From Winogradskyella algicola (GTDB taxonomy: Bacteria > Bacteroidota > Bacteroidia > Flavobacteriales > Flavobacteriaceae): a stretch of DNA of 64,000 bases. A model generated the notes under the pieces. The model searched no databases. It was not told where the DNA came from and worked only from the letters and a program-made list of their open reading frames with translations. The position numbers and the translations under genes are program-made. The stretch is from assembly GCF_005869935.1 (NCBI RefSeq), contig NZ_SZQF01000007.1:62001-126000 (forward strand), written 5' to 3'. This document shows, one piece after another, positions 20,482 to 38,290 of this stretch. Every line of letters starts with the position of its first letter. Position 1 is the stretch's first letter.

Positions 20482-21873
20482 ATGACTATGCATAACGATA
20501 CCATTGTGGCTTTGGCAACACCTTCTGGCAGTGGTGCCATTGCTGTTATAAGATTATCAGGTAAAGATGCTATTAAAATAGCTTCTTCATCATTTAAATC
20601 TGTTTCTGGTAAGAATCTTAGTAATCAATCTACTCATACAATTCATTTAGGACATATTGTTGATGGGAATAAAACTCTAGATGAAGTATTAGTTTCTGTA
20701 TTTAAAAACCCTAATTCGTATACTGGTGAGGATGTTATCGAAGTGTCTTGTCATGGTTCGCAATATATTCAACAAGAAATCATTCAATTATTTTTGCGAC
20801 AAGGATGTAGAATGGCAAATGCTGGTGAGTTTACCTTGCGTGCCTTTTTAAATGGTAAATTAGATTTAAGTCAGGCAGAGGCTGTAGCTGATTTAATAAG
20901 CAGTGATAATGAAGCATCACACCAAATTGCCATGCAACAAATGCGTGGTGGTTTTTCTTCTGAAATTGCTAAGCTACGCGAAGAACTTTTAAACTTTGCG
21001 TCTTTAATTGAATTAGAGTTAGACTTTGCCGAAGAAGATGTTGAGTTTGCAGACCGAACACAGTTTAAAGCACTTATTGAGCGTATCACTTTTGTATTGA
21101 AACGACTAATTGATTCTTTTGCAGTTGGTAACGTCATTAAAAATGGTATTCCTGTGGCGATTGTAGGCGAACCAAATGTTGGCAAATCTACATTGTTAAA
21201 TGCACTTTTAAACGAAGATCGTGCTATTGTTTCTGAAATCGCAGGTACAACTAGAGATACTATTGAAGATGAAATCTCCATTGGAGGTATAGGTTTTCGT
21301 TTTATTGATACTGCAGGTATACGAGAAACAGAGGATATTGTTGAAAGTATAGGTATTAAAAAGACCTTTGAAAAGATAGAACAATCTCAAGTAACAATTT
21401 ATCTTTTTGATGCAAGTAAGGCTATAGATACACTTGAGGATGTGAGGATAGAAATTGAAAAAATCAGAAATAAATATCCTCAAAAACCATTATTGGTTAT
21501 TGCCAATAAGATTGATCGCTTGGATGACATACAATTGGCAAAGATTAATTCTACTATCGCAGATGTTTTATTACTTTCTGCAAAAACAGGGTTTGGTGTT
21601 GAGCAATTAACTAACTCTTTATTAAATTTAATTAATACAGGTGCTTTACGTAATAATGAAACCATAGTTACAAACACACGTCATTATGATGCCTTATTAA
21701 AAGCTTTTGAAGAAATTCAAAAAGTGCAACATGGTTTAGAAACAGGTTTGTCAGGTGATTTATTAGCCATTGATATAAGACAAGCCTTGTATCATTTTGG
21801 TGAAATTACGGGTGAGATAACCAATGATGACTTACTAGGCAATATTTTTGCAAATTTTTGTATCGGGAAGTAA
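20482..21873 (+). CDS. mnmE: tRNA uridine-5-carboxymethylaminomethyl(34) GTPase MnmE
   Basis: A 463-residue protein. It has an N-terminal tetrahydrofolate-binding domain (DTIVALATPSGSGAIAVIRLSG), a helical domain, and an inserted G domain: GEPNVGKSTL (G1), GTTRDT (G2), DTAGIRET (G3), NKID (G4). The C-terminal FCIGK carries the catalytic cysteine. With MnmG it modifies the wobble uridine of tRNAs. An alternative start is the ATG two codons later (MHNDTI). The last five codons overlap attL of the integrated element, and the core restores the identical peptide, so the enzyme stays intact. Confidence 0.97.
   Translation: MTMHNDTIVALATPSGSGAIAVIRLSGKDAIKIASSSFKSVSGKNLSNQSTHTIHLGHIVDGNKTLDEVLVSVFKNPNSYTGEDVIEVSCHGSQYIQQEIIQLFLRQGCRMANAGEFTLRAFLNGKLDLSQAEAVADLISSDNEASHQIAMQQMRGGFSSEIAKLREELLNFASLIELELDFAEEDVEFADRTQFKALIERITFVLKRLIDSFAVGNVIKNGIPVAIVGEPNVGKSTLLNALLNEDRAIVSEIAGTTRDTIEDEISIGGIGFRFIDTAGIRETEDIVESIGIKKTFEKIEQSQVTIYLFDASKAIDTLEDVRIEIEKIRNKYPQKPLLVIANKIDRLDDIQLAKINSTIADVLLLSAKTGFGVEQLTNSLLNLINTGALRNNETIVTNTRHYDALLKAFEEIQKVQHGLETGLSGDLLAIDIRQALYHFGEITGEITNDDLLGNIFANFCIGK
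21858..21873 (+). other. attL core at the 3' end of mnmE
   Basis: TTGTATCGGGAAGTAA comprises the last codons and stop of mnmE. A copy with one difference (TTGTATTGGGAAGTAA) lies at 53911-53926. An integrase gene sits just inside, as expected for a site-specific integrative element. The single mismatch is a silent third-position change (ATC/ATT). Confidence 0.85.
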
Positions 21874-21880
21874 CTTACTT

Positions 21881-22453: not shown

Positions 22454-23548
22454 ATGAAAGTAACATTAAGACAACGCAAGAAGAACGACAAAATAAGTCT
22501 GTATTTAGATTACTATCATAAAGGCAAACGTAAAACAGAATACTTACGCTTATACCTTACACCTAATCCTAAAACCAAAACTGAAAGAGAGGTTAATAAG
22601 AAAACCAAACAATTGGCTGAAACTATATGTGCACAGCGACAAATAGAAATTCAAAATGGTATTTATGGCTTTCAAGATATTGAAAAGCTAAAAGGTAGTT
22701 TTATTACTTATATCACAGCTTTAGCAGAAAAGAAAAATACAAGCTCTGGCAATTATGGTAATTGGAATAGTATGCTAAAACATTTAAAAAAGTTTTGTCC
22801 AACAGATGTTAGTTTTCAAGATATAGACAAATCGTTTGTTGAGCGTTTCAAAGAGTATTTAGATAAAGAAGCAATAGGTAGAGCAGGTAAGCAATTGTCT
22901 CAAAATTCAAAATATTCGTATTATGGTAAATTTTCAGCGGCATTAAAACAGGCGGTCAAGGATGGAATTTTAAAAGTAAATCCTGCAAATGGTGTAGAGT
23001 ATTTTAAACAAGGAGAACCTCAACGAGAATTTTTAACGCTTGATGAATTACAAAAAGCAGTTAATACAGAATGTGAACTGCCTATCTTAAAGAATGCTTT
23101 TATTTTTTCAGCTTTAACCGGATTACGTTGGTCAGATATTGAAAAACTGATATGGTCAGAAATCCAGCACTCAAAAGAAATGGGATATTATATCCGATTT
23201 AGACAAAAGAAAACTAAAGGTGTCGAAACCTTACCAATATCAGACCAAGCAAGAAATCTATTAGGAGAAAAAGGTAATCCAGACGATAAAGTATTTGATG
23301 GCTTACATTATAGTGCCTGGTCTAATTTAAAATTACAACAATGGATGATGAAGGCAGGTATTACTAAAACTATTACGTTTCATTGTGCGCGTCATACCTA
23401 CGCTACCTTACAATTAACTTTGGGTACAGACATATATACTGTATCAAAATTATTAGGTCATAAAGAGTTACGAACTACACAGATATATGCCAAAGTAATT
23501 GACGATAAAAAGAAAGAAGCTGCTAACCGTATTCAACTGGATTTATAA
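22454..23548 (+). CDS. Tyrosine recombinase (site-specific integrase)
   Basis: A 364-residue phage-type integrase. The N-terminal arm-binding domain (about 1-75) is followed by a SAM-like core-binding domain (about 90-185) and the catalytic domain. Catalytic residues seen: R225 in TGLRWSD, H310 and R313 in HCARH, H336-region LGHKEL, and nucleophile Y345 in TTQIYAKV. It most likely recombines the 16-bp core at the 3' end of mnmE. Its stop overlaps the next gene's start (TAATG). Confidence 0.95.
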   Translation: MKVTLRQRKKNDKISLYLDYYHKGKRKTEYLRLYLTPNPKTKTEREVNKKTKQLAETICAQRQIEIQNGIYGFQDIEKLKGSFITYITALAEKKNTSSGNYGNWNSMLKHLKKFCPTDVSFQDIDKSFVERFKEYLDKEAIGRAGKQLSQNSKYSYYGKFSAALKQAVKDGILKVNPANGVEYFKQGEPQREFLTLDELQKAVNTECELPILKNAFIFSALTGLRWSDIEKLIWSEIQHSKEMGYYIRFRQKKTKGVETLPISDQARNLLGEKGNPDDKVFDGLHYSAWSNLKLQQWMMKAGITKTITFHCARHTYATLQLTLGTDIYTVSKLLGHKELRTTQIYAKVIDDKKKEAANRIQLDL

Positions 23549-24495
23549 TGAAAGGAAGTATATTTTCAAGTTTGGTTTCTATAACCAATGGCTTACATAG
23601 AGATAATAGACAGGAAAAGGATTTTAAATACTTATTGTCTGATTTTAAATTGAACCAAAAAGCTAATAACGCAGTTTTTAAAGTAAACTTTAAAAAGCCT
23701 TTAAATGCGAAAAAAGAATACTATCAAAAGCTAATAATTAATGAAACAGAAAATACAGTAGCATCATTTGTAAAGGAATTTCCGAAAAATGCAACTACAC
23801 CAGAAAATAAATACAGCTATACCATTCTACTTAATAAATTTGATAAGTACTTAAATGACATTGCAACTTATATCAATAAAAGAGGTATAACAACAGATTT
23901 AAATAATGATGACAATTATATCATAAACTACTTAAAAGTATCTGTAATAAGGTTGTATGCTGAACTACAAGAGCAATACGGACAATTTTCGGAAAATACA
24001 AAATTCTCAATTTCTGAAATTGCAGAAAAATACTTTAATGATGAAACTTTTGATGTTAGCTTAATAGAAAAGAACACCACTAAAAAAGTTGCTACCAAAA
24101 AAACATCAAAAACGAAAGCAACACCCAAGACTTCTTTTGGATATAAAAGTAATGACACTTCAACTTTGCTAACTGTACTTAAACAAGTAAATCTAAAAAT
24201 CGATTTGTTAGATAACCGCACAACTGTTGAACATTTGCACCAATTGTTATTAGCAAAAGATTTTGCAAATACAGAATCGCAAATTTATCTTCAATGCGAA
24301 ACTACACAGTTTAGTTACCTTGTAACAAAACTTAAACCATTTTTTAATGGTTTCAATCCTACCTCAATAGAACGTTCTGGAAAATTTATTACTAAAACAG
24401 GTACGCTATTAAAGGCGAATAATCTTCACAAAAACAAAATTCACAACCCAAAAGAAAAGGAAGAAATAGATAAAATCATCCAACAACTGCAATAA
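23548..24495 (+). CDS. Hypothetical protein, integrase-coupled
   Basis: A 315-residue soluble protein whose ATG overlaps the integrase stop codon, so it is translationally coupled. The N-terminal 170 residues are Lys/Asn-rich and helical. A basic linker (about 175-200, KKVATKKTSKTKATPK) leads to a C-terminal domain of about 110 residues with the pattern LLLAKDF...IYLQCETTQFSYLVTKLKPFF. I do not recognise the family. The basic linker suggests contact with nucleic acid. Coupling suggests a role in integration or its control, but that is only context. Confidence 0.7.
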   Translation: MKGSIFSSLVSITNGLHRDNRQEKDFKYLLSDFKLNQKANNAVFKVNFKKPLNAKKEYYQKLIINETENTVASFVKEFPKNATTPENKYSYTILLNKFDKYLNDIATYINKRGITTDLNNDDNYIINYLKVSVIRLYAELQEQYGQFSENTKFSISEIAEKYFNDETFDVSLIEKNTTKKVATKKTSKTKATPKTSFGYKSNDTSTLLTVLKQVNLKIDLLDNRTTVEHLHQLLLAKDFANTESQIYLQCETTQFSYLVTKLKPFFNGFNPTSIERSGKFITKTGTLLKANNLHKNKIHNPKEKEEIDKIIQQLQ

Positions 24496-24651: not shown

Positions 24652-24954
24652 ATGGACACAAATATCATCGAAAAGTTAGACCGCATTGAAAAACTCTTAT
24701 TAGAGCAACAAACAATGCAAAAGCAAGTATTAAACTTTAATGAAACTTGCAAGTATTTAGAATTATCCCAATCGCACTTGTATAAACTCACAAGTACGGG
24801 AACCATTCCACATTATAAACCGAATGGTAAAAAGATTTATTTCCAAAGAGAAGAGTTAGACCATTGGTTACTGCGTAACCGTATGAACTCAAGAGACGAA
24901 ATCGAACAGCAAGCTGCCGATTACCTTATTAAGAAAGGAGCGGTGAAGTTATGA
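24652..24954 (+). CDS. Excisionase-type helix-turn-helix protein
   Basis: A 100-residue protein. The N-terminal 25 residues form a coiled-coil-like helix (LDRIEKLLLEQQ). Residues 28-85 are a winged HTH of the excisionase (helix_turn_helix_17) type: LNFNETCKYLELSQSHLYKLTSTGTIPHYK...IYFQREELDHWL. Such small proteins pair with the next gene in Bacteroidota mobile elements. They are thought to regulate excision or the adjacent replication genes. The stop overlaps the next start (ATGA). Confidence 0.85.
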   Translation: MDTNIIEKLDRIEKLLLEQQTMQKQVLNFNETCKYLELSQSHLYKLTSTGTIPHYKPNGKKIYFQREELDHWLLRNRMNSRDEIEQQAADYLIKKGAVKL

Positions 24955-25247
24955 CTGAAATAATCGATTTACTCTTAACGCTCTCTCAAGAAATAAAGGA
25001 CATTAAAGCACGTATCGAATTGTTACGACAATCGAGAGCAGAAGTATTAAAAGATACGTGGATAGACAATCAAGATGTATTGCAGACCTTACATATAAGT
25101 AAGCGAACGCTACAAACTTTAAGAACCAATGGCACTTTGCCTTACAGCAAAGTAAAAGGTAAATTTTACTATAAAGTTGCTGACATAGAGCAATTGCTTC
25201 AAGACAACTACTACAACCATAATTTCAAGCAAGATGGAAATAAGTAG
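24951..25247 (+). CDS. Second small helix-turn-helix protein
   Basis: A 98-residue paralogue-like companion of the preceding gene. An N-terminal helix precedes an excisionase-type HTH: WIDNQDVLQTLHISKRTLQTLRTNGTLPYSKVKGKFYYKVADIEQLL. It overlaps the previous gene by 4 bp and the following one by 14 bp, so the module is translated as a coupled cluster. It is probably DNA-binding; its target is unknown. Confidence 0.85.
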   Translation: MTEIIDLLLTLSQEIKDIKARIELLRQSRAEVLKDTWIDNQDVLQTLHISKRTLQTLRTNGTLPYSKVKGKFYYKVADIEQLLQDNYYNHNFKQDGNK

Positions 25248-26142
25248 AGAAGCAATTTTAGACAAAACACATTATGGTTTAAAAATCTATGCCTATGTGT
25301 TGAGACAGTATTATCCTAATCAAACAGTCCTTTCTGTAAAAGGAAGGGACTGTGGGATAACTCGAAACCCTTTTAATGGTGGTAAAGAAACCTTACGGAT
25401 TCATATTGATGGTATTATAGCAACACATCGAGATACAGAATTAGAAGCCTTTAAAGGTGATGTATTCGATTTTGCACAATATCATTTTAGAATAACCGAT
25501 GAAGAAGATTTGTACCAGAAGATAAATCAAGAGCTACATCTAAATTTAGAAGTCAAGGAAAAAGACGAATTGGAATGGCTTAATGAACCAGACGATACGT
25601 GGTATGCCAACTGTAGCTTTTTTAAAGCACCTGTTCGCAATGTGTTTCCTTCGGAAACCTTGCGATTACATCAAGTATTTGCATTAATCACAAGTAATAA
25701 ATACAAAAAGATTACTGAAGAATTAAGAGCAATTACCAATGTAAAAGAAGCACGTAAATTCAAAGCGAATCGCTTTGATTACGTAACACTTTCAGGAACA
25801 TTTGAAAAACGAAGCGATAACAATTTGCTAAAGCATTCTAATTTATTAACCATTGATTTTGACCATTTAGAGAATCTACAAGAGTTAAGAACACAGCTCT
25901 TAAATGATGAATATTTTGAAACCGAAATGCTATTCATATCACCATCTGGCGATGGCCTAAAATGGATTATTAGAATAGATATTTCAGAAGTATCGCATTC
26001 AGAATATTTCACAGCAGTAGCAAATTACATTAAACACAATTATAACATTGAGGTTGACCAGTCAGGTAAAGACGTTTCCAGAGCGTGTTTTTTACCATAT
26101 GACCCAACAGCCTTTTTACATAAAAGACATCAAGCATTATGA
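25234..26142 (+). CDS. BT4734/BF3469-like (VirE N-terminal) mobile-element protein
   Basis: A 302-residue protein. The N-terminal part (about 1-115) has GRDCGITRNPFNGGKETLRI. The second half (about 150-300) matches the BT4734-like/VirE-N domain: KRSDNNLLKHSNLLTIDFDHL and FISPSGDGLKWIIRID, then QSGKDVSRACFLPYDP. These motifs recall the archaeo-eukaryotic primase-like fold with an acidic D-x-D-x pair. In Bacteroidota elements it is encoded just before a DUF3987 protein, as here (4-bp overlap). A role in element replication or primer synthesis is likely but unproven. Confidence 0.8.
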   Translation: MEISREAILDKTHYGLKIYAYVLRQYYPNQTVLSVKGRDCGITRNPFNGGKETLRIHIDGIIATHRDTELEAFKGDVFDFAQYHFRITDEEDLYQKINQELHLNLEVKEKDELEWLNEPDDTWYANCSFFKAPVRNVFPSETLRLHQVFALITSNKYKKITEELRAITNVKEARKFKANRFDYVTLSGTFEKRSDNNLLKHSNLLTIDFDHLENLQELRTQLLNDEYFETEMLFISPSGDGLKWIIRIDISEVSHSEYFTAVANYIKHNYNIEVDQSGKDVSRACFLPYDPTAFLHKRHQAL

Positions 26143-27890
26143 CTAAAATATTTAACCCAAAAGATTGGTTAGAAGTTCCTAAAGAGCCAACAAAACCAAA
26201 AAGCAACACAGCAACAACTAATGTTGTTGCTGTTGCTGATAACGACATTGAATCCTACATTTCAGCAATCGAGCAATCAGGTACAGACATAACAGGAAGT
26301 TATGCCACTTGGAGAGATTTAGGCTTTGCTTTAGCAGAAGAATACAGAGAAACAGGAAGAGATTATTTCCACCGAATAAGTAAAAATTATGCAGGTTACG
26401 ATGCTAAAGAGTGTGATGCACAATTCGATAAATGCTTAAACGCAAAAGGACACGGAATTACAATTGCTACCTTTTACCATTACACACATCAGTCAGGTAT
26501 AAAACCGACTAAACAACAGTATAACAACGAAGTTGCAACAAACGTTGTAACTGTTGTCGATACACCCAACCAAGCAATGCCTACAATACCAGAAACGGTA
26601 TATGAGAATTTGCCACAGTTTTTACAACAAGTTGTAAACCCTGCTAATGGACAGGAAGAAAAGGACATTTTATTGTTAGGCGCATTAACAGCATTTAGTG
26701 CGTGCTTTCCTAAACTCTTCGGAATCTATGACCAACGTAAAGTATTCAGCAACTTATATTTATTTGTAACCGCACCTGCTTCTGCAGGAAAAGGAAGGCT
26801 TAACCAAATTAAAAATTTGGTAGAGCCCGTTCACAAATTAAAACGAGAACAAGCCAAAGTATTAAAGCAGCAATTTCAATCAGAAACCGCTACTTACAAT
26901 ATGAACAAAGGCAAAGATGAAAACTTAGAAAAACCGAGTAAACCGCCAGAGCGAATGCTATTCATTCCTGCTAACAATAGTGTAACAGGCGTATATCAAT
27001 TAATTTCTGATAATAAAGGCAGAGGATTAATTTTTGAAACCGAAGGCGATACGTTAGCACAAGCCTTTAAAAGCGATTATGGTAATTATTCCGATGGTTT
27101 TCGGAAAGCCTTTCATCACGAAACTATAAGCTATTATCGCAGAACGGATAGAGAATACGTAGATATTGAAAAACCCTGTTTATCAACAGTATTATCAGGT
27201 ACACCTAAACAAGTGGCGACTCTAATACCCAATGCAGAAAATGGCTTATTTAGTCGCTTTATGTTTTACTATATGAATATAAAACCAACTTGGAAAAACG
27301 TGTTTCAAAATAGCAATAAAGTAGGTTTAGATGATTACTATAACCAATTAGGTAGTGAGTTTTTAGAACTGTACAAAACGCTAAAAAACAATCCAGAGAT
27401 TGAAATACGATTAACCACAACTCAACAACAGCAATTCAATACCTTTTTTGAATCCTTACAGACCAAATACATCAACCTACAACCCGAAGAGTATATTGCA
27501 ACAATAAGGAGATTAGGCTTAATTGCATTTAGGGTAATGATGCTATTCACAGCATTCCGCATTATGGAAGATGGTGATGTAAATGGAACTAAAGAATGTG
27601 AGGATATAGATTTTGAGAACGCTATAACCATAATTTCAATTTTAGTGAAGCACAGTAGTAAAGTATTTAATGATTTACCAATAGAGCAGAAAGCAACAAA
27701 ACGTTCAAATAGAAAAGAACGCTTTTTAGAAAGTTTACCAAAACAATTTATCAGACAAGTGTATTTAGATTTAGCCACAAAACAGAACATCCCACATAAA
27801 ACCGCAGAAGGATATATTACCAAATTTGTAGAAGCAGGATTAATACACAGAGAAGCACACAATAACTACTCAAATCCTGCAAAGCCGTAG
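26139..27890 (+). CDS. PriCT-2 / DUF3987 replication-type protein
   Basis: A 583-residue protein. Residues about 38-125 resemble the primase C-terminal 2 domain (YATWRDLGFALAEEY...AGYDAKECDAQFDKCL). From about residue 160 a DUF3987 domain follows, with a Walker A-like loop TAPASAGKGRLNQI, then FETEGDTLAQAF and LSGTPKQVATLI. The C-terminus is a winged-helix-like segment. Together with the preceding gene it forms a primase-helicase pair typical of integrated elements, perhaps supporting replication after excision. No partial or frameshift signs. Confidence 0.82.
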   Translation: MTKIFNPKDWLEVPKEPTKPKSNTATTNVVAVADNDIESYISAIEQSGTDITGSYATWRDLGFALAEEYRETGRDYFHRISKNYAGYDAKECDAQFDKCLNAKGHGITIATFYHYTHQSGIKPTKQQYNNEVATNVVTVVDTPNQAMPTIPETVYENLPQFLQQVVNPANGQEEKDILLLGALTAFSACFPKLFGIYDQRKVFSNLYLFVTAPASAGKGRLNQIKNLVEPVHKLKREQAKVLKQQFQSETATYNMNKGKDENLEKPSKPPERMLFIPANNSVTGVYQLISDNKGRGLIFETEGDTLAQAFKSDYGNYSDGFRKAFHHETISYYRRTDREYVDIEKPCLSTVLSGTPKQVATLIPNAENGLFSRFMFYYMNIKPTWKNVFQNSNKVGLDDYYNQLGSEFLELYKTLKNNPEIEIRLTTTQQQQFNTFFESLQTKYINLQPEEYIATIRRLGLIAFRVMMLFTAFRIMEDGDVNGTKECEDIDFENAITIISILVKHSSKVFNDLPIEQKATKRSNRKERFLESLPKQFIRQVYLDLATKQNIPHKTAEGYITKFVEAGLIHREAHNNYSNPAKP

Positions 27891-28044: not shown

Positions 28045-28353
28045 ATGGAGTTTGGAGAGTACATACGCTCATTGCGTGAAAACCGCAATTTGCTATTAAG
28101 AGAAATGGCTGCAAACCTAAATATGGACGTTGCCTATTTAAGCAAAATAGAACGAGGAAATCGGATGGCAAGACGCGAACAAGTAGTTGCATTCGCTAAA
28201 GCATTAAAACAAGACGAAAACGAATTAATTAAGCTATGGATGTCCGAACAAATTGTACTAATGCTCAAAAATGAAAAAGAGAGTACGGAAATCCTCAAAA
28301 TAGCTGAAGAAAAAATTAGTAAGATTGTTAAAAAGGGTAAGGATTTAAAGTAA
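28045..28353 (+). CDS. XRE family transcriptional regulator
   Basis: A 102-residue protein starting MEFGEYIRSLREN. An in-frame TTG at 28021 would add eight residues but lies inside the candidate operator, so the ATG at 28045 is chosen. Residues 5-60 are a Cro/C1-type HTH (LLLREMAANLNMDVAYLSKIERGNRMARREQV) and the C-terminal half is helical. It resembles regulators placed ahead of restriction-modification and other defence genes. It is 3 bp from the HEPN gene, so it probably autoregulates and limits the downstream defence genes. Confidence 0.88.
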   Translation: MEFGEYIRSLRENRNLLLREMAANLNMDVAYLSKIERGNRMARREQVVAFAKALKQDENELIKLWMSEQIVLMLKNEKESTEILKIAEEKISKIVKKGKDLK

Positions 28354-28356
28354 TTT

Positions 28357-29610
28357 ATGTTTAAAGAGAATAAATATTATGGCGAGGTATGGTTTAAATC
28401 TGCAGAGGATAATAAGTGCTTTTGTGTATTAGAGTTAATTAATGATGAAGTGCACATAACGACCAATTTGTCAGAAAGATTACCTGCCTATCAAATAGAG
28501 TTAATTTATGGGGTTTTTACAGGTTTAGGCTATTTAACTTTTGTAAACTGCAAGATTAAAAACAGTAGCAATGGAATAGTAGAGACTAAAACTTATAAGC
28601 CTAAATATACGTTTGCTTGTGCATATCATTTAATTGAACCTATAGGTTTGAAAATTAATGAATTTCAAATTGACAATTTAGCAATAGTGAGTTGGGTTAG
28701 AAAAATGCATTGGTATAATTCTTTAGAAGACAAACTTGAAAAAGAGGATGACGTAGTCCACAATACGAATATTACTAAAGACTTATCTATTAAAATCACA
28801 AAATCAACATCATATACTTCTAACCACGACTTTTTTAGAATGGACAATGTTGGATATGTCGATTTTATATCAGAAAAAAAATTGAGTATTCTTGAGAGTA
28901 TAGATTTATATAATTCATTTCAAAAATTATTTCATTTTTTATACGGTAAGTCTGTACAATTTAAATCTTTTAATTTTAAATGTTTAAGCTGTGGTAATTG
29001 GGCTTCGTTATATTACAAGGATGATTTCAACAAAGAAAACATATCTGGTTTTATAGCGCTTGACTATGATACTATTAAAGATGATTTGTCCAATATAATT
29101 AAGCATTGGTATAACAATGAAGGCATAAGTTATTGTGCTGATATTATTATCGAAAATTTACTCTCGGTTAAAACGAGTCATAGTAGGCGATTTACAAATT
29201 CCTATACAGCTTTCGAGGCTTATAGTTTGAAATTTGGTAATAAGATTAAGAACTCATCTTTTGCCAAAGATTTATTAGAACAAAAGCAATTATTAGTCGA
29301 TATAACTAATATTCCAGAAGATGATATTAAAACATATGTATCAAAGATTGTTCGTCATCGAGATTATTTAATACATCGCACTAAAACAAAAAACAATATT
29401 TTTTCACAGTTTGAACTATTGTATATATCCTTTTTATTAGATTATTTGGTTGGTTTAGGCTTGGTGAAACAAATGGAAGTTTCTGATAAAATTATTGAAA
29501 AAATAATAGAGCGTGCTAAATCTACATACCAAGATATGCAGTCTGTAAATAGACTACTAAACAAAGATTTATTAGTTGATAACAATAATAAAGTTCAACC
29601 TTCTATGTAA
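28357..29610 (+). CDS. ApeA-like HEPN domain protein (putative abortive-infection RNase)
   Basis: A 417-residue protein. The first 250 residues are beta-rich and resemble the N-terminal region of ApeA-like abortive-infection proteins, with a CLSCGNW motif near residue 208. The C-terminal 160 residues are all-helical and hold the HEPN RNase signature R-x4-H in IVRHRDYLIHR (R335 and H340). HEPN effectors typically cut tRNA or mRNA after an infection trigger. It sits between the XRE regulator (3 bp) and an Argonaute gene (21 bp), so it may be the toxic output of a pAgo sensor. Alternatively it could be an independent Abi gene. No signal peptide. Confidence 0.75.
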   Translation: MFKENKYYGEVWFKSAEDNKCFCVLELINDEVHITTNLSERLPAYQIELIYGVFTGLGYLTFVNCKIKNSSNGIVETKTYKPKYTFACAYHLIEPIGLKINEFQIDNLAIVSWVRKMHWYNSLEDKLEKEDDVVHNTNITKDLSIKITKSTSYTSNHDFFRMDNVGYVDFISEKKLSILESIDLYNSFQKLFHFLYGKSVQFKSFNFKCLSCGNWASLYYKDDFNKENISGFIALDYDTIKDDLSNIIKHWYNNEGISYCADIIIENLLSVKTSHSRRFTNSYTAFEAYSLKFGNKIKNSSFAKDLLEQKQLLVDITNIPEDDIKTYVSKIVRHRDYLIHRTKTKNNIFSQFELLYISFLLDYLVGLGLVKQMEVSDKIIEKIIERAKSTYQDMQSVNRLLNKDLLVDNNNKVQPSM

Positions 29611-29631
29611 AATTACAATATAATTTCATTT

Positions 29632-31743
29632 ATGCAAGAACACCTCAAAACCAACATACTTAATTTTAAATGGCCTAATAGTGCGCCTACAATATTTTTA
29701 TCATTAGAGGATATTGAAGGCAGTCATCCCATTCATAAATCTAAATTTTCAAGACAGATTAAAGAGGTGTTTCCAGACACAGACCTATCTAATACAGACC
29801 AAATATTTACAACATTTACAACAGAAACACCTAATGCACCAAGCATTAAGCTGAATTTAGTAAATGGTAGAGAATTGAGAATATATAAACAATACCTTAA
29901 ACACCAATTAAGAAGCTATTTTCAATCAAAAGACTATATAGTAGTAAAAAACTTTGTTGGTGATGTACAAGTGTGGATGCCTTCTCTTAAAGGCAATACA
30001 GAACATTATAATTTGTATTACAAATTCTCATTTAAGGTACAATTTGCAAAACTCACAGACTTACCAGAGCTTATTGTATCGTATGATGGCACATCAAAAG
30101 TCCTTACAACATCTGTTAAGGATATAGAGGAAACAGAGAATATTAAGCGTTGTGTATATGGACAAAAGACTTTTAATTACCAAATGAAACTCGATACAGA
30201 GGAGAAAGAAGAATTTTATAATGCAATTGAGTTTGACCAAGCATTCCCAATATTTAGTTTACCATTAGCACGAGCATTAAATATACCTATTGAAGAACCT
30301 GTAAGACCAATTAATAAATACCAAAAATATGTAGCACTTATCAATAATTTTGCAACCAACTATCTGTTTACAGAAGATTTTAAAGCCATATTTCCATTTA
30401 AGAATGATGCTTTTATAGATGTGCCTCTCAATCGTATCAACCATATCGACCCACAAGTAGGTTTATTAGAATTTGGTAAAGACCAATATGGTAATAAAAA
30501 AACACATTTAGTGCCTAAATTGGCAATGAATAACCTCAACCCTTACAAAAGACCCAACAACCAAAACATTAAGTTTTTCTTTGTATACCATACCTCACAT
30601 AAAGAAGCAATTAAAACCTTTTACAATAACCTCAAAACTGGTGTTACTGCGGATAAAAAGTATTTTAAAGGGATTGAGGCTTATGTAAATATTAAGGCTT
30701 CAACTTCTAAAGAACATTTTATTGAATTTACTAACGAAAACAACCCAATACCAGAAATAGTTGAAAAGTTAGAGAGTTTAACCTTCGACCACGATAATGT
30801 GCTTTACGCAGCTTTTTATTTAAGTCCTTTCGATAAGTTCACACAAAATCCCGAAGACCGCGAAATCTATATTCAAATCAAAGAACTGTTTTTAAATGAA
30901 GGCATTGTTACACAAGTGGTAGATTATGAAAAAATGGTGGTCAATATCGAGAATCAATACAACTTCCAATTTTCATTGCAAAATATGGCGTTAGCTATTC
31001 ACGCCAAATTAGGTGGCGCACCTTGGAAACTTGCAGTAACCGATAAAAAAGAATTAGTAATAGGTGTTGGTGCATTTACCAATCAAGGCGAAAACAGACG
31101 TTATATAGCAAGTGCTTTTAGCTTTCAAAACAATGGCTTATTTAGAAAGTTCGAATATTTTGACCAAAGCGAAACAGACCTATTGGCAGGAAGTATATGT
31201 AAAGCCATTAGAGATTTTACATCGGTTGCAGAAGCAGATAAAGTAGTCATTCACTTCTATAAGGAAATGAGTTACGAGGAACTAAAACCAATTATTAGAG
31301 GGATGCATACATTAGGGTTAAAAATTCCGCTCTACATTCTAAATATCAATAAAACAGAAGCAGAAGATATTATTGCTTACGACCTTAATTGGAACAAAAA
31401 GTTAATGCCTGTAAGTGGTACATACATACGTATTAGCGAAAATCATTTTTTGTTGTTTAATAATGCACGTTACCCTAATTCACAGCGGTATGCAGATACA
31501 GATGGTTATCCGTTCCCAATAAAAATTAAGGTAAGCAGTCCAGATGAAGATGCTTTTGAAGATGCAGATGTAGTGTTAGAATTATTAACACAAGTGTATC
31601 AGTTTAGCAGATTATATTGGAAATCGCTTCGACAACAAAATGTACCAATCACAATAAAATATCCAGAAATGGTAGCACAAATAGCACCACATTTTAATAA
31701 TGGCGTTCCAGACGATGCTAAAGATGCTCTATGGTTTTTGTAA
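29632..31743 (+). CDS. Long prokaryotic Argonaute with intact MID pocket and degenerate PIWI
   Basis: A 703-residue pAgo. The N-terminal about 330 residues should hold the N, linker and PAZ-type regions. MID covers roughly 330-455 and carries Y413, K417 and Q428 with K459 in AKLGGAPW, matching the guide 5'-phosphate pocket (spacing K to Q is 11 residues, as in Thermus Ago). The PIWI fold follows (IHAKLGG, ELVIGVGAF, KVVIHFYKEM, DGYPFPIKI, YPEMVAQIAPHF). Where active proteins have Asp in VIGID and RDG, this one has G480 and Y543, so slicing is probably lost. It is co-oriented with HEPN and XRE genes, suggesting a guided sensor. Confidence 0.85.
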   Translation: MQEHLKTNILNFKWPNSAPTIFLSLEDIEGSHPIHKSKFSRQIKEVFPDTDLSNTDQIFTTFTTETPNAPSIKLNLVNGRELRIYKQYLKHQLRSYFQSKDYIVVKNFVGDVQVWMPSLKGNTEHYNLYYKFSFKVQFAKLTDLPELIVSYDGTSKVLTTSVKDIEETENIKRCVYGQKTFNYQMKLDTEEKEEFYNAIEFDQAFPIFSLPLARALNIPIEEPVRPINKYQKYVALINNFATNYLFTEDFKAIFPFKNDAFIDVPLNRINHIDPQVGLLEFGKDQYGNKKTHLVPKLAMNNLNPYKRPNNQNIKFFFVYHTSHKEAIKTFYNNLKTGVTADKKYFKGIEAYVNIKASTSKEHFIEFTNENNPIPEIVEKLESLTFDHDNVLYAAFYLSPFDKFTQNPEDREIYIQIKELFLNEGIVTQVVDYEKMVVNIENQYNFQFSLQNMALAIHAKLGGAPWKLAVTDKKELVIGVGAFTNQGENRRYIASAFSFQNNGLFRKFEYFDQSETDLLAGSICKAIRDFTSVAEADKVVIHFYKEMSYEELKPIIRGMHTLGLKIPLYILNINKTEAEDIIAYDLNWNKKLMPVSGTYIRISENHFLLFNNARYPNSQRYADTDGYPFPIKIKVSSPDEDAFEDADVVLELLTQVYQFSRLYWKSLRQQNVPITIKYPEMVAQIAPHFNNGVPDDAKDALWFL

Positions 31744-31776: not shown

Positions 31777-31806
31777 TTCAATAATTTGTATATTTGTATA
31801 AATTAT

Positions 31807-32202
31807 ATGAAAATATTTGTTTCCATATCAATGTCTATTTTATTCTTTTTTCAAGGGATAAGCATAGATATGGACTTTTGTGGTCCAATTAAAGAAATTT
31901 CAAATGTAATTACCCATTATCAAGACCATAAAGTTTATGGAGACTCTTTCTTTGAATATGTAGTTGAAGATTACATTGAGAGCGATGCTAAAAATGAAGA
32001 GCATCATCATAACCCAGATAAGGAGAATACACCAGTCCATTCCCATAATCAATGTTGTCACCCTTTGGTATTAATTATTGCGAACAATAATTTGGCTTTA
32101 ACCAATCTATTAAAGTTTGAAGAGAAAAAACAATATAATTTACATAAAGTAAACTTCACTTCCAGATATTTGGAATCACTTTTCCAGCCACCTAAAGTAT
32201 AA
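31807..32202 (+). CDS. Small secreted His/Cys-containing protein of metal operon (HYC_CC_PP-like)
   Basis: A 131-residue protein from MKIFVSISMSILFFFQG; the start at 31807 gives a clean signal peptide. It carries MDFCG, a His-rich patch (EEHHHNPDKENTPVHSHNQCCHP) and a C-terminal FQPPKV. This order (xxCG, CC, PP) parallels the better-defined HYC_CC_PP protein at 40723. His, Cys and Asp side chains suggest periplasmic metal binding. It opens the efflux gene block, 123 bp before the fused RND pump. The function is inferred from context. Confidence 0.7.
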   Translation: MKIFVSISMSILFFFQGISIDMDFCGPIKEISNVITHYQDHKVYGDSFFEYVVEDYIESDAKNEEHHHNPDKENTPVHSHNQCCHPLVLIIANNNLALTNLLKFEEKKQYNLHKVNFTSRYLESLFQPPKV

Positions 32203-32325
32203 TTCAGTTTTTTAATGGATAGCTATATCCAATTTTGAGCCTAAAGGGTTCATTTCATTTTGTGTAATTCTATTTTCTTATATCAGAATTGTATCGAATA
32301 GTTTAACTGAATTAATACATTTTCT

Positions 32326-35300
32326 ATGATTAATAAAATCATTGATTTTTCAATCAATAACAAATTCATTATTGGTTTGCTTACGCTTACCATAATCGGA
32401 ACAGGTATTTGGAGTATGACCAAAGTGCCAATAGATGCTGTTCCAGATATTACCAATAACCAAGTACAGGTTATTACACAATCCCCCAATTTAGGTACTG
32501 AAGATATTGAGCAAATTGTTACTTATCCAATTGAAGTGGCAATGAGCAATCTTCCTGATGTTCAGGAAATAAGGTCAATTTCTCGTTTTGGCTTATCTGT
32601 GGTTACTATTGTATTTGATGATGATATGGGAACATATCTACCTCGCCAATTAGTAGCCGAAAAACTAAACAAAGTCAAAGAGCAAATACCTGCTGGATTT
32701 GGCGAACCTACAATGGGTCCTATTTCAACAGGTTTAGGAGAGATTTACCAATACACACTAAAAGTTGCACCAGAGTTTAAAGACAAATACAACATTGCAG
32801 ATTTACGCTCAATGCAAGACTGGATTGTACAGCGTCAAATGGCAATGGTTCCTGGTGTGGTAGAAGTAAACGCTATTGGTGGAAAAATAAAACAATACGA
32901 AGTAGCGGTTGACCCAAACGATTTAAATGCTATTGGCCTTACCATTACAGATGTGTTTAATGCACTTGAAGCCAATAATCAAAATACAGGAGGTGCATAT
33001 ATTGAAAAGAACCATCAAGCCAATTTTATTCGTGGTGAAGGCTTGGTGAGAAGTTTAGAGGACATTAAAAAAATCACTGTCAAGAATATTAATAATATAC
33101 CTGTCACTATTGGCGATATTGCTACGGTACAATTTGGCTCTGCAATTCGTTACGGTGCATTAACCCAAGATGGTGAAGGAGAAGTTGTAGGTGGATTGGT
33201 AATGATGCTAAAAGGAGCTAATTCCAATGATGTTATTGCCAATGTAAAAGAGCGAATGACTCAAATTGAAAAGTCGTTACCAGAAGGCGTAATTATTGAA
33301 CCATTATTAGACCGAAGTAAATTAATTGGCGAAACAACTTCTACAGTAACAACTAATCTTATTGAAGGTGCATTAATCGTCATTTTTGTGTTGGTCTTTT
33401 TGTTAGGTAATTGGCGAGGAGGTTTAATAGTTGCCTCTACTATTCCATTATCCTTATTATTTGCTTTTATTTTAATGAATGTTTTTGATGTTTGGGTAAA
33501 CCTAATGAGTTTAGGAGCAATTGATTTCGGAATCATTGTAGATGGTGCTGTAATTATTGTTGAAAGCACTGTTTTTCTTATAGCATCACAAGTTTTGAAA
33601 AAGAAACAACTTACATCTAAAGAAAGAGATAAAGTTGCTTCTAATGCTTCAAAAAAGATGATGAATGCTGCCTTCTTCGGTCAGTTGATTATCCTTATCG
33701 TTTTTCTACCCATTTTAGCCTTACAAGGTATTGAAGGAAAGATGTTTAAACCAATGGCTTTGACCTTTATTTTTGCTATGATTGGTGCAATGGTACTTTG
33801 TTTAACCTATGTGCCAATGATGTCAGCTTTAATATTAAGAGCACCTAAAAACGATAAAAAATCTTATGGAGATAGATTTGTGCATTGGGTTGAAGATAAA
33901 TACCAACCTTTATTGGTTAGAGCCTTGCGAAAAGGGAAATGGGTAATTGGTATTGCAGTTGTGTTGTTCGGAATAACCGTTTTTATGTTTTCAAGAATGG
34001 GTGGCGAGTTCATTCCGCAACTCGATGAAGGTGATATTGCATTTCACGCTATTTTAAAACCAGGTAGTTCACTTACAGAAACTATTGAAACTACTACCAA
34101 AATAGAACAAATAGTAAAAGCAAAATTTCCAGAAGTTGATAAAATTGTGAGTCGTATTGGTGTTGCCGAAATTCCAACCGACCCGATGCCTATGGATATT
34201 GCCGATGTTTTTGTAATTCTGAAACCTAAAAGTGAATGGACTACTATAGAATCAAAAGATGAATTGATTGAAGCAATGAAAGAAGCAGTTGAAATGGTTC
34301 CTGGTGTTAATTATGAGTTTACACAACCTATTGAAATGCGTTTTAACGAGTTATTAGAAGGTGTTCGTGAAGATATTGCTATAAAACTTTATGGTGAAGA
34401 CATTGATATTCTATCTCAAAAAGCCGAAGAAATATCTAAAATTATCGCAGGTACTGAAGGTATTGGTGATATGAAAGCGGAAGCCACAACAGGTTTGCCA
34501 CAAATGACAATCAATTACAACAGGAATAAATTGGCGCAATATGGTCTTCAAATAAATACGCTTAATCAAACCGTACAATCTGCATTTGCAGGTGGTACAG
34601 CAGGTGTAATTTTTGAAGGTGAAAAACGCTTCGATTTAGTAGTACGATTAAGCGATCAAAACCGTAAGGATATTTCAGATGTTCAAAACCTGTATATCAA
34701 TTTACCTTCGGGTGCTCAAATTCCTTTACGTGAAATTGCAGATGTAAGCTATAAAGCAGGACCAATGCAAATCAGTAGAGATAACACCAATAGAAGAACC
34801 TATGTAGGTGTTAATGTTAGAGGACGTGATGTAAAATCGTTAGTAACTGAAATTAAATCAAAATTAGATGCACAATTAGAATTACCATCAGGTTATTTTA
34901 TTCGTTATGGTGGTGCATTTGAAAATTTAGAACGTGCCAGCAACCGATTACAAACCGTTGTGCCTATTGCATTGTTACTCATATTTATACTAATATATTT
35001 TGCATTAAAATCTTTACCACAGACCTTAATGATTTACATAGCTATTCCAATGGCAACTATTGGTGGTGTTGTGGCGTTGTGGTTACGTGATATGCCATTT
35101 AGTATTTCGGCAGGTGTTGGTTTTATTGTGCTGTTTGGTGTTGCAGTTTTAAATGGTTTGGTAATGATAAGCGGACTCAACGAATTAAAAGAAGAAGGTG
35201 TAACCAATCTAAAGGATAGAATAGTTGAAGGTACTAAACGAAGAATCAGACCTATTATGCTAACTGCTTTTACAGATGTATTAGGCTTTCTACCAATGGC

Positions 35301-36660
35301 TATTTCATCATCAGCTGGTGCAGAAGTACAACGTCCATTGGCAACGGTTGTTATTGGTGGATTATTAACTTCAACTTTGCTTACCTTATTTGTTTTACCA
35401 ATTTTATATCATTGGGTAGAAAACAAATCTTTTACGTTTAAGCCAAATAAAAAGTTAGTAACAGCAACAGCAGTTGTATTATTACTATTTGGCTTTTCAC
35501 CACAAAGTAATGCACAAGAGTTGAATGATACAATTCCCGAAATTTCATTACAGGAAGCTGTTAAACTCGCAAAAAGTAATTATCCATTATTGAAGCAAAA
35601 GCAGTTGGAAATTACAAAACAAGAACAATTAAAATCGACTGCCTATGATTTCGGAACGACTCAAATTTTTACAGGTGGAGAAGAAATTGATAATGGAAAT
35701 GGCATCTATACAACCATTGGTATTGGTCAATCAAATATCGATGTATTTGGCATTGGTTCTAAAAAGAAGCTACAAGAACAACGCATTCAATTGGCACAAA
35801 AAGCCTTTCAACTTTCCGAGTTGGAATTAGAATTGGAAGTTAAAAAAGCTTGGTCTAATTGCTATCAAATGAAACAAAACTATGATTTGTATAAGGAATT
35901 GGATTCCATTTATTCCAAATTCGAGCAAGCAGTAGCTTTAAATTATGAAGTCGAAGCTATTTCTAAATTAGAATATTCGGCAGCAAAAAATCAAGCGTTT
36001 CAAATTCAGAATAAAAAAGCGCAAGCCTATAGTAATTATCTTATTGCCTTACAGCAATTCAATTTGTGGTTGGTATCAGAAGAAATTTTTACAGTTTCAG
36101 ATGAATTTGAGGTAGCGATAGATAGTGATATGGAAACATTCAGTATTGAAAGTCATCCATTGTACAGTATGTCGCAGAACATTGTAGATGAAGCGGAAGC
36201 TAAATATAAAGCTGCAAAAGCAGATAATTTGCCAAAGTTCAATCTTCAAGGTGGTTTACAAAAAGTAAATGGCAATTCAGGATTTTACACCTATCAAGCA
36301 GGAATTTCAGTTCCGTTTTTATCAGGTTCTAGCAAAGCACAAGTTAGAAGTGCCAGAATTGATAAAGAAATAGCGGAAACCAATGTAGCGTTCAAAAAAC
36401 AGGAAGTACAATCAAGGTTTGTTCAGGCTAAAGAAAATTATATGAAATGGAAAACATCTTGGGAGTTTTACAAAGACCAAGTTTTACCATTAACAAAAGA
36501 GCAAAAAACAGGTGCATTACTGGCATATAGAGAAGGCGAAATTGATTATACTGCATTTACGCAGTTGATAAAAGAAGCAATTCAATCGGAACTGGAAGCA
36601 CAGACTGCATTAGTAAACTATTTAGAAAGCACATTTCAATTACAATATTTTAATAAATAA
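32326..36660 (+). CDS. CzcA-like heavy-metal RND pump fused to TolC-like outer-membrane channel
   Basis: A 1444-residue fusion. Residues 1 to about 1035 are an HME-RND permease with 12 transmembrane helices. The TM4 signature D400-FGIIVD406-GAV matches the Zn/Co/Cd (CzcA-type) class. Residues about 1042-1064 form a basic-hydrophobic segment ending SNAQ, like an internal signal peptide. The remaining 380 residues are a TolC/CusC-type outer-membrane factor with the coiled-coil pattern. The fusion is a Bacteroidota arrangement and implies proteolytic release of the channel. The adaptor gene starts 4 bp later. Confidence 0.92.
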   Translation: MINKIIDFSINNKFIIGLLTLTIIGTGIWSMTKVPIDAVPDITNNQVQVITQSPNLGTEDIEQIVTYPIEVAMSNLPDVQEIRSISRFGLSVVTIVFDDDMGTYLPRQLVAEKLNKVKEQIPAGFGEPTMGPISTGLGEIYQYTLKVAPEFKDKYNIADLRSMQDWIVQRQMAMVPGVVEVNAIGGKIKQYEVAVDPNDLNAIGLTITDVFNALEANNQNTGGAYIEKNHQANFIRGEGLVRSLEDIKKITVKNINNIPVTIGDIATVQFGSAIRYGALTQDGEGEVVGGLVMMLKGANSNDVIANVKERMTQIEKSLPEGVIIEPLLDRSKLIGETTSTVTTNLIEGALIVIFVLVFLLGNWRGGLIVASTIPLSLLFAFILMNVFDVWVNLMSLGAIDFGIIVDGAVIIVESTVFLIASQVLKKKQLTSKERDKVASNASKKMMNAAFFGQLIILIVFLPILALQGIEGKMFKPMALTFIFAMIGAMVLCLTYVPMMSALILRAPKNDKKSYGDRFVHWVEDKYQPLLVRALRKGKWVIGIAVVLFGITVFMFSRMGGEFIPQLDEGDIAFHAILKPGSSLTETIETTTKIEQIVKAKFPEVDKIVSRIGVAEIPTDPMPMDIADVFVILKPKSEWTTIESKDELIEAMKEAVEMVPGVNYEFTQPIEMRFNELLEGVREDIAIKLYGEDIDILSQKAEEISKIIAGTEGIGDMKAEATTGLPQMTINYNRNKLAQYGLQINTLNQTVQSAFAGGTAGVIFEGEKRFDLVVRLSDQNRKDISDVQNLYINLPSGAQIPLREIADVSYKAGPMQISRDNTNRRTYVGVNVRGRDVKSLVTEIKSKLDAQLELPSGYFIRYGGAFENLERASNRLQTVVPIALLLIFILIYFALKSLPQTLMIYIAIPMATIGGVVALWLRDMPFSISAGVGFIVLFGVAVLNGLVMISGLNELKEEGVTNLKDRIVEGTKRRIRPIMLTAFTDVLGFLPMAISSSAGAEVQRPLATVVIGGLLTSTLLTLFVLPILYHWVENKSFTFKPNKKLVTATAVVLLLFGFSPQSNAQELNDTIPEISLQEAVKLAKSNYPLLKQKQLEITKQEQLKSTAYDFGTTQIFTGGEEIDNGNGIYTTIGIGQSNIDVFGIGSKKKLQEQRIQLAQKAFQLSELELELEVKKAWSNCYQMKQNYDLYKELDSIYSKFEQAVALNYEVEAISKLEYSAAKNQAFQIQNKKAQAYSNYLIALQQFNLWLVSEEIFTVSDEFEVAIDSDMETFSIESHPLYSMSQNIVDEAEAKYKAAKADNLPKFNLQGGLQKVNGNSGFYTYQAGISVPFLSGSSKAQVRSARIDKEIAETNVAFKKQEVQSRFVQAKENYMKWKTSWEFYKDQVLPLTKEQKTGALLAYREGEIDYTAFTQLIKEAIQSELEAQTALVNYLESTFQLQYFNK

Positions 36661-36664
36661 GACA

Positions 36665-37870
36665 ATGAAAAACAAAATATATAAAATCCTTACCGTAATG
36701 GTGTTAGCCATATTTGTTTCAGCTTGCGGAAATAAAGAAAATCATAACGAGAATGATGGTCATTCCCACGATGAGGAAGAAAAAACAGAAGTTAACGAAG
36801 AGCATCACGATGAAGACGAAGTAATGCTTTCACAACAGCAATTCGATGCATTGAAAATGAAAATAGATACGTTAGCATTACGTAATATGAGCGGCTATGT
36901 AGAAGCAAACGGAACGTTAGAAGTACCACCACAAAACGAAGCAGCTATTACTACTGTTGTTGGTGCAAATGTCGTTTCAATTGAAGTGATTGAAGGTGAT
37001 AAGGTTAATAAAGGTCAAGTTGTGGCTTATCTATCGCACCCAAATATCATACAAGCGCAAACGGATTATTTAAACGCTTATAGCAATAGCGAGCTTGCAA
37101 AGAAAAATTATGAACGTCAACAAAAATTATACGATGCTGGTGTTGGTTCTGGTGCTAATTTCCAGAAAGCAGAAGCAGAATATCAAGCATCAAAAGCAAT
37201 GGTTAATGGTTTAGAAGCGCAATTAAGAATACTCAACGTTAACACTACATCAGTTCGCAATGGAACAATTGCACAGCGCATAGCATTGCGAAGTCCAATA
37301 GAAGGCTTTGTGCAAAAAGTTGAAGTAAAAACAGGTCAATATGTAGAGCCACAAACCGAATTATTTGAAATTGTAAATACGCATCACGTTCACGCCGATT
37401 TAATGGTTTTTGAAAAAGATGTTTATAAAGTACAGAAAGGTCAGAAAGTTAACTTTACGGTACAATCCATACCAGATGCAGAGCTTATCGCAGAAATCTA
37501 TTCCGTAAGCAAAACCTTTGAGGACAACCCAAAAGCAGTCCACGTTCACGCAGAAATAGAAAACAAAAAAGGTAACTTAATTCCTGGTATGTATATTCAA
37601 GGTAAAATTCAAGTAGATAATACCCAAACAAAAGCTTTACCAGAAAGTGCAATTATAAAAGAAGGCGAAAGATATTATGTGTTTTCAGTAGAAAAAGAAA
37701 ATGACGATTGGAGCTTTAAACCTATCGAAGTTGTGTTAGGCACTAAAGATGGTGATTGGGTATCGGTTCAATTTACTGAAAACATAGAAAGTAATACAAA
37801 ATTTGCTTATAACAATGCTTATTATCTTAACGCAGAAATGAAAAAAGGAGAAGCAGAACACGCACATTAA
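36665..37870 (+). CDS. Efflux RND periplasmic adaptor (CzcB-like lipoprotein)
   Basis: A 401-residue lipoprotein (lipobox VSACG). A His/Glu/Asp-rich segment follows (HNENDGHSHDEEEKTEVNEEHHDEDE, about 26-52), probably chelating metal. Then come the membrane-fusion domains: beta-barrel and lipoyl (VVSIEVIEGDKVNKGQVVAYL), alpha-hairpin (about 125-180), second lipoyl half (LRSPIEGFVQKVEVKTGQYV), and C-terminal beta domain. It links the RND pump with the channel. It is in the operon with the pump (4 bp) and the Fur gene (2 bp). Confidence 0.92.
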   Translation: MKNKIYKILTVMVLAIFVSACGNKENHNENDGHSHDEEEKTEVNEEHHDEDEVMLSQQQFDALKMKIDTLALRNMSGYVEANGTLEVPPQNEAAITTVVGANVVSIEVIEGDKVNKGQVVAYLSHPNIIQAQTDYLNAYSNSELAKKNYERQQKLYDAGVGSGANFQKAEAEYQASKAMVNGLEAQLRILNVNTTSVRNGTIAQRIALRSPIEGFVQKVEVKTGQYVEPQTELFEIVNTHHVHADLMVFEKDVYKVQKGQKVNFTVQSIPDAELIAEIYSVSKTFEDNPKAVHVHAEIENKKGNLIPGMYIQGKIQVDNTQTKALPESAIIKEGERYYVFSVEKENDDWSFKPIEVVLGTKDGDWVSVQFTENIESNTKFAYNNAYYLNAEMKKGEAEHAH

Positions 37871-37872
37871 TT

Positions 37873-38286
37873 ATGGAAACAATAGAACAAGTATTAGAGT
37901 CAAAAAATATTCGTGTTACAGCAATGCGTTTGCTTATATATAAGTTTCTTGCAGAAAAAGAGGTCGCTGTTACTTTAAGTGATATTGAAAATGCTTTCTC
38001 AAAAGCAGACAGAACCACTTTATACAGAACTATTAAAACCTTTGAAGAAAAGGCTATTGTGCATCAAATAGACGATGGTACAGGGATTACAAAATATGCA
38101 TTATGTGAAAAGGGATGTAATTGTGAAATTGAAACCGATTTGCACTTACATTTCCATTGTAATAATTGCAATGAAACCATTTGCTTAACAGAACATAAAA
38201 TACCTCAAATAAAAGTGCCAGATGGTTTTGTGTCAGAGAATGTAAATTTGGTGGTAAAAGGTATTTGCGACAAGTGTAGTGTCTAA
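37873..38286 (+). CDS. Fur family transcriptional regulator
   Basis: A 137-residue regulator. An N-terminal winged helix (IRVTAMRLLIYKFLAEKEVAVTLSDIENAFSKADRTTLYRTIKTFEEKAIVHQI) is followed by a metal-binding dimerisation domain with LHLHFHCNNCNETICL and a C-terminal GICDKCS, giving a four-Cys structural zinc site and His ligands. Fur, Zur and Nur cannot be told apart by sequence alone. Position beside Czc-type genes and the Zn/Cd ATPase favours Zn or Co/Cd sensing. It is 2 bp after the adaptor and 5 bp before a TGCA-N7-TGCA box, its possible operator. Confidence 0.9.
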   Translation: METIEQVLESKNIRVTAMRLLIYKFLAEKEVAVTLSDIENAFSKADRTTLYRTIKTFEEKAIVHQIDDGTGITKYALCEKGCNCEIETDLHLHFHCNNCNETICLTEHKIPQIKVPDGFVSENVNLVVKGICDKCSV

Positions 38287-38290
38287 TTAT

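Follow-up and report, generated by a model that had tools for sequence, protein, structure and literature searches.

Long-B prokaryotic Argonautes (pAgos) have been described with nuclease, Sir2 or transmembrane (TM) effectors encoded downstream (Song 2023, PMC10620215), and the sections of that paper drawn on here also list a long-B subclade in which a VirE-N protein is encoded two to eight genes upstream of the pAgo and whose functions "need to be addressed". In the part used here of the survey from which the orthogroups come (Ryazansky 2018, PMC6299218), all long-B pAgos were without the catalytic tetrad and nearly all carried YK. Two further points, each taken from a portion of its source, concern mobile elements: islands of the SGI1 type insert, with their cargo, at the 3' end of trmE/mnmE (PMC8409611), and DUF3987 ATPases are predicted to be helicases of mobile elements (PMC5862659). 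We studied a 64,000-nucleotide stretch of Winogradskyella algicola (assembly GCF_005869935.1, contig NZ_SZQF01000007.1, positions 62,001-126,000, forward strand), hereafter the window, in which an integrative element at mnmE carries three successive genes for an XRE-family regulator, an ApeA-like HEPN protein and a long-B pAgo (Table 1).

A preliminary description of these genes had taken them for one defence system, in which the pAgo recognises invader nucleic acid and unleashes the HEPN RNase. The three open reading frames (ORFs) were confirmed, all on the plus strand with intergenic gaps of 3 and 21 bp, although a mechanical call of the XRE ORF begins earlier, at a TTG at 28021. The HEPN-pAgo partnership was rejected as the main explanation after the locus survey, the pAgo tree, synonymous divergence and a reverse search (see below). 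The best reading, in which we place moderate confidence, is that the element has a constant, guide-binding pAgo with no effector dedicated to it, accompanied by exchangeable and self-sufficient defence genes. The genes beside the pAgo, including the predicted RNA-cutting HEPN, are likely to be separate anti-phage systems.

Table 1 Features of the element in the window (positions are those of the window)
Feature	Position	Strand	Basis and remarks
attL, left end of element, at the 3' end of mnmE (mnmE 20482-21873)	21856..21874	+	Repeat pair; MnmE by Pfam
HTH_17 protein	21970-22446	+	Pfam
Tyrosine integrase	22454-23548	+	Pfam
DUF6617 backbone gene	23548..24495	+	6e-186
Two HTH_17 backbone genes	24652..25247	+	Pfam; conserved order
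BT4734-like (PF08800) and PriCT-2/DUF3987 genes, predicted replication proteins	25234..27890	+	Pfam; DUF3987 literature
Candidate XRE operator, inverted repeat TTAGAC-N12-GTCTAA	28010..28033	+	Contains the 18-bp motif GACAAAATTTGACAAGTC (28013-28030)
XRE-family regulator	28045..28353	+	102 aa from ATG; HTH_31 4.9e-12 (Pfam)
ApeA-like HEPN protein, exchangeable cassette of the window copy	28357..29610	+	417 aa; Pfam; tract near-identical with L013, L014, L017, L018, L019
RsAgo-like long-B Argonaute, backbone gene	29632..31743	+	703 aa; first catalytic Asp absent, guide pocket residues present
Further cargo of element	31786..51414	+	Seven genes scanned; boundary from attR
attR, right end of element	53909..53927	+	Repeat pair

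A constant Argonaute gene in an integrative element at mnmE

The 19-bp stretch at the 3' end of mnmE recurred, with 3 mismatches, at the position listed as attR. Shuffled windows held on average 0.03 matches to this repeat, and none of 100 shuffles held two. The repeat pair thus delimits an element of ~32 kb, and the presence of an integrase between flanking att repeats identifies it as integrative, in agreement with the mobile element named in the preliminary description. A tRNA gene was rejected as the attachment site because ARAGORN found none in the window, and an Rfam scan of positions 20300-54000 gave no family reaching its gathering score.

Among close relatives, the pAgo is a constant backbone gene in this clade of elements. 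A pAgo profile (E <= 1e-30) matched 40 places in 37 of 397 genomes of the family Flavobacteriaceae (window's genome counted in), and at 34 of the 40 the integrase lay no more than 30 kb upstream, on the same strand. The six remaining places, in G389, G338, G114 (two pieces), G186 and G372, were partial matches, except for that of G389, whose contig starts inside the element. Starting from the integrase, all 21 copies of at least 92% identity (the window's included) were followed by a pAgo 4.8-22.0 kb downstream, as were 13 of 22 copies at 60-84% identity and none of 18 at 50-53%. The middle band has nine misses, of which three are accounted for: the contig of G243 ends inside the slot described below, that of G349 ends just past the integrase, and in G186 a pAgo fragment lies on another contig. 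DUF6617 matched at E < 1e-120 in 20 of the 397 genomes, all 20 with the pAgo; weaker matches without it occurred in G243, G073 and G083. For loci too short to reach DUF3987, a match was present in all 13 genomes examined (a 14th, of L076, being outside the set), and in 12 of these it lay ~8-18 kb upstream of the pAgo and on its strand, with coordinates matched by hand; that of L070 was not matched. Outside these genomes, a tblastn search of a plasmid collection with the pAgo returned 11 records, none at 80% query coverage, and viral contigs held one pAgo relative, at 40% identity.

In genomes lacking this pAgo, sister elements at mnmE kept either an XRE gene with type I restriction genes (L131) or the DUF3987 and BT4734-like genes (L130), so the slot is independent of the pAgo. 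These elements also bear on another explanation, namely that the pAgo works with a backbone protein (DUF3987/PriCT-2, BT4734-like, DUF6617 or the integrase), helping in replication or copy control, or in keeping related elements out. Since both genes kept by L130 can evidently do without this pAgo, we regard such a partnership as doubtful, even though the backbone genes are the pAgo's most constant neighbours.

The pAgo matched a PADLOC profile at 1e-288 over residues 2-703 and Pfam Piwi at 1.3e-11. At what we take to be the place of the catalytic Asp motif, Gly480 occupied the position of the first Asp in all 32 aligned pAgos (window included); judged at that position alone, the PIWI domain is without the DEDX tetrad. 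Residues Y413, K417, Q428 and K459 of the MID domain were likewise invariant in the 32 and aligned, as counted by hand, with Y123, K127, Q137 and K163 of AfAgo, which presumably make up a 5'-phosphate pocket of the YK type. The predicted structure appeared RsAgo-like over its full length. Judging from these residues, the pAgo is predicted to bind guides and not to cut, as the preliminary description had proposed.

The variable slot and the HEPN cassette

A total of 295 pAgo relatives were confirmed in genome contigs, and the best 80 of the 295 (L002-L081) were analysed, so that distant loci are undersampled. Locus flanks extended at most 8 kb, and a simple longest-ORF rule served for gene calling. 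In contig-cut loci an unseen HEPN or XRE gene is no proof of absence, and loci cut by contig ends (e.g., L041, L042, L046, L050, L059, L068, L069 and L072) cannot display the backbone. L001, which is the window itself, was dropped from the cargo counts, and the viral locus L082, with no XRE, entered the gene maps only and no count.

Just upstream of the pAgo, mostly between it and the XRE gene, lies a slot holding restriction systems, AbiD, TIR pairs, HEPN, small ORFs or nothing. In 46 rows with XRE, DUF3987 and a pAgo of more than 600 aa (window included), the first gene after XRE was type IIG restriction-modification in 16, HEPN in 11, c23 in 3, c29 in 3, c18 in 2 and five others once each; six rows had nothing. 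One of these six, L022, was scored so by the script, and by eye its sequence before the pAgo resembles the end of the c41 ORF of L008; setting it aside leaves five empty slots (L007, L010, L075, L079 and L081). The cargo identified between XRE and pAgo comprised type IIG restriction, AbiD (Abi_2), PDC-S05, a type II restriction enzyme, a deaminase protein and TIR pairs, and directly upstream of the pAgo lay type I restriction (L068) and RmrA (L070) in loci without a visible XRE.

Cargo changed even between very similar pAgos. Of pAgo pairs with at least 90% identity, 344 of 394 differed in cargo, counts that are not independent because many loci come from close species and some pAgo rows are identical. 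The pAgos of L016 and L018 are 99.3% identical, and their slots hold unrelated cargo, c29+c30 and HEPN, respectively; the two loci have 99.1% DNA identity through the end of XRE, show no match across the cargo, and from 25 bp ahead of the pAgo gene onward are 95.9% identical. A quick-mode tree (LG+G4; long-branch warnings were given) of 49 pAgos, one of them the window's, required a minimum of 30 changes in cargo composition and of 8 in the presence of HEPN. HEPN shows some clustering by descent together with high turnover.

What lies downstream of the pAgo also varied. No effector of the BPAN type was conserved there: neighbours were mixed across 78 of the 80 loci, the other two being at contig edges, and the genes just downstream were c12 in 19, c16 in 18, c18 in 13 and scattered others. 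Where the slot was empty, the pAgo was still constrained (omega, the ratio of nonsynonymous to synonymous divergence, 0.05-0.07 in two pairs) and was followed by genes of metal-resistance or other varied types, which favours a pAgo needing no dedicated neighbour.

A constant pAgo next to a variable slot, in co-directional genes, could also be an effector-agnostic sensor that recruits or licenses any slot product. A database protein of Nonlabens spongiae (P0099, 782 aa) in which an XRE domain is in frame with a pAgo of the same family ties XRE and pAgo together and would suit such a sensor. We nevertheless find it quite unlikely: the cargo includes type IIG and type I restriction enzymes, known to function alone (the type I cases coming from loci without a visible XRE), five slots are empty, and the XRE and type I restriction genes of L131 occur in a genome without this pAgo.

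The HEPN protein scored 126.9 bits with ApeA_NTD1 (cut-off 25.5) and 22.6 bits with HEPN_Apea, just below the cut-off of 24.4 (Pfam); many of its homologues in a precomputed list carry PF18739. The motif R335-x4-H340, pointed out in the preliminary description, was invariant in both residues in 27 of 27 aligned proteins (window included), giving the ApeA combination of an ApeA_NTD and a HEPN with Rx4-6H. A Foldseek search of the PDB with the HEPN model gave nothing at E <= 0.001, so the HEPN name rests on sequence families. HEPN ORFs were present in 12 of the 80 pAgo loci, some of which are cut short. In the 397 genomes the HEPN profile found nine, five with HEPN within two genes of this pAgo and four without this pAgo; in the 11-18 kb surrounding the latter four genes, neither the window's XRE nor its pAgo had a visible relative, and one of the four, in G216, had an internal stop in the HEPN match. 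In G027 (L038) AbiD lies between HEPN and pAgo.

Synonymous divergence (dS) between the window and L013 was 0.008 for HEPN (7 of 1254 bases differing), as against 0.173 for XRE, 0.379 for pAgo and 0.273 for DUF3987; the corresponding values for L018 were 0.013, 0.172, 0.284 and 0.261. The difference between HEPN and the adjoining pAgo indicates that HEPN was exchanged as a cassette. The five relatives sharing the tract (~28340-29660, from the XRE end to ~30 bp into the pAgo gene; see Table 1) differed from the window at 7 or 8 of 1254 bases of HEPN, 0 of 21 of the HEPN-pAgo spacer and 14 of 309 of XRE, and within pAgo at 101-154 of 1069 bases in the first half and 13-75 of 1043 in the second. 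The HEPN cassette was therefore transferred recently without its immediate neighbours. Recombination is also indicated inside the Argonaute gene itself, by alignments in which identity to L017, L018 and L019 rises at ~30700 from ~77-90% to 99-100% (L018).

These results do not support the claim that HEPN is the dedicated effector of the pAgo. A two-component abortive-infection system, in which guide-based detection by the pAgo switches on the HEPN RNase, would agree with two genes on the same strand 21 bp apart, with the separate effectors through which known long-B pAgos act (sections used of PMC10620215) and with a genomic co-occurrence above chance (see below). It is nonetheless very improbable in view of the rarity of HEPN in pAgo loci, the L016-L018 pair, the cassette exchange and the four of nine HEPN genomes without this pAgo.

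Several other genes of the element and its relatives deserve mention. The seven scanned genes of the further cargo were of metal-resistance types: RND efflux, CusB-like, FUR family, DUF3703, two P-type ATPases and DUF305. In a genome without this pAgo, an HEPN/ApeA relative (L122 8412-9647) is close to genes that strongly resemble the metal-resistance ones found downstream of pAgo in the elements. The c18 gene (235-259 aa; no Pfam match in the member scanned; at L002 10122-10856, L037 7247-7954 and 16 other places), besides its position directly downstream of pAgo in 13 loci, lay directly upstream in 5 and is a candidate defence gene without a name. Some slots hold the pair c29/c30, membrane-bound in look by eye, or c30 with two TIR proteins and c46 (L016 6076-7963, L033 5344-7961); relatives of c29/c30 also adjoin type I restriction genes, in a sister element from a genome lacking this pAgo (L130 12800-14559), and the set is possibly an undescribed system. 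The c41 cargo is a small protein with PGY repeats (L008 7647-7970, L023 4859-5182), followed in L023 by a deaminase protein of the PADLOC dCTPase type.

A candidate operator and the weight of the evidence

Of 49 loci, 46 carried the 18-bp motif of the candidate operator, each of them once and no more than 120 bp from the called start of XRE; their 874,754 bases hold no other copy. The count is not independent, and so tells less in favour of our interpretation, as the motif was derived from the same loci, many of which are closely related. The called XRE ORF begins ahead of the motif in three loci. The motif was kept across many cargo kinds and with XRE proteins down to 41% identity to the window's (L067). 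As the same site stands at XRE whatever the cargo, it looks like a single operator for the XRE-cargo-pAgo operon, and the control of expression that the preliminary description assigned to the XRE protein has thus gained a possible site. To a degree XRE co-varies with cargo: its identity to the window's XRE was 50-69% in loci with type IIG cargo, as against 85-96% in the other loci with a pAgo of 82% identity or more to that of the window.

On the interpretation of a constant pAgo beside exchangeable defence genes, the XRE protein would bind the conserved site upstream of its own gene and set the level of the whole operon. The pAgo may act, by analogy with RsAgo, through small guides (RNA in that analogy) that mark complementary invader DNA, and would need no dedicated neighbour to protect the element or the host from rival plasmids, elements and phages. 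The HEPN protein would sense infection through its ApeA N-terminal domain and cleave RNA, causing abortive infection; it would be an RNase toxin acting alone, forming a layer of defence for which a restriction system, AbiD or other genes can be substituted.

A number of observations count against this interpretation. Six middle-band integrase copies have no pAgo downstream and no contig break to excuse it; their genomes (G073, G083, G223, G319, G071 and G248) gave zero pAgo profile matches. Most slots are occupied, and since omega averages over history, those now empty may once have held cargo. The element is mosaic throughout, with a dS of 0 for integrase and DUF6617 between the window and L018, and the second half of pAgo is nearly identical in the same pair (13 of 1043 bases), so that exchange is not special to HEPN. 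The 18-bp motif is absent from L062, L074 and L075. HEPN is somewhat clustered on the pAgo tree, its 8 changes comparing with a shuffled mean of 11.6 (3 of 500 shuffles as low), and it occurs in 5 of the 37 pAgo genomes as against 4 of the 360 others (Fisher p = 5e-4; 397 genomes, window's included). The co-occurrence expected in the preliminary description thus exists, but in a small part of the pAgo loci, and we attribute it to the element carrying the cassette. The clustering and the co-occurrence may leave room for a loose functional link between HEPN and pAgo.

A bolder version, which we put forward tentatively and with low confidence, makes the pAgo a core gene of a mobile-element family that guards the element and not the host, by guide-directed silencing or exclusion of rivals with neither slicing nor a dedicated effector, and that, with XRE on the other side, frames a slot under one promoter where homologous recombination swaps whole defence systems. 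The frame of XRE, slot and pAgo is a natural experiment: nearly the same pAgo occurs with many cargoes or none, which makes the solo role of an inactive Argonaute directly testable. It is also a caution that a pair of defence-like genes 21 bp apart on the same strand need not form one system.

Comparison with known systems

Searches of the open-access literature for Argonautes with HEPN, ApeA, DUF3987 or integrative elements gave no paper whose title or abstract beginning describes this element. The ApeA system, reportedly described by Gao in 2020, corresponds to PADLOC PDC-S58 and, like the window's protein, joins ApeA_NTD1 and an Apea-like HEPN in one protein; the window gene differs in following an XRE gene in the slot of an element and in its HEPN score just below the Pfam cut-off. 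The element resembles the SGI1-type islands in its insertion at the 3' end of trmE/mnmE and differs from them in a backbone of DUF6617, BT4734-like and DUF3987 genes with a constant Argonaute. RsAgo of Rhodobacter sphaeroides was the best fold match along the full length of the pAgo model, with 16% identity in the structural alignment, and has Gly at the same aligned place; a likeness in the use of guides and targets is suggested by analogy.

The BPAN, BPAS and BPAM systems also contain an inactive long-B pAgo, and EcAgo (23wq) is a sequence relative of the window's. In the sections consulted of PMC10620215, these systems have a conserved downstream effector that co-evolves with the pAgo, whereas in the window's family the downstream gene is not conserved, and no conserved operon with a nuclease, Sir2 or TM effector was found. 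The VirE-N (og_54) subclade, going by the same partial sources, has a catalytically inactive long pAgo with a YK pocket as in the window; its function was left open, as was that of the long-B pAgos without a partner (Song 2023), and in the window's element the upstream gene belongs to the element backbone. There the BT4734-like gene is the fourth upstream of the pAgo, in keeping with the position given for VirE-N, and it is part of the conserved gene order. We take og_54 to be PF08800, the family of this gene. The element may then explain the published VirE-N long-B clade, and the cargo slot would account for the variable distance between VirE-N and pAgo. If a constant pAgo without a dedicated effector is indeed the case, the og_54 clade is a mobile-element Argonaute, and no hunt for an effector next door is needed.

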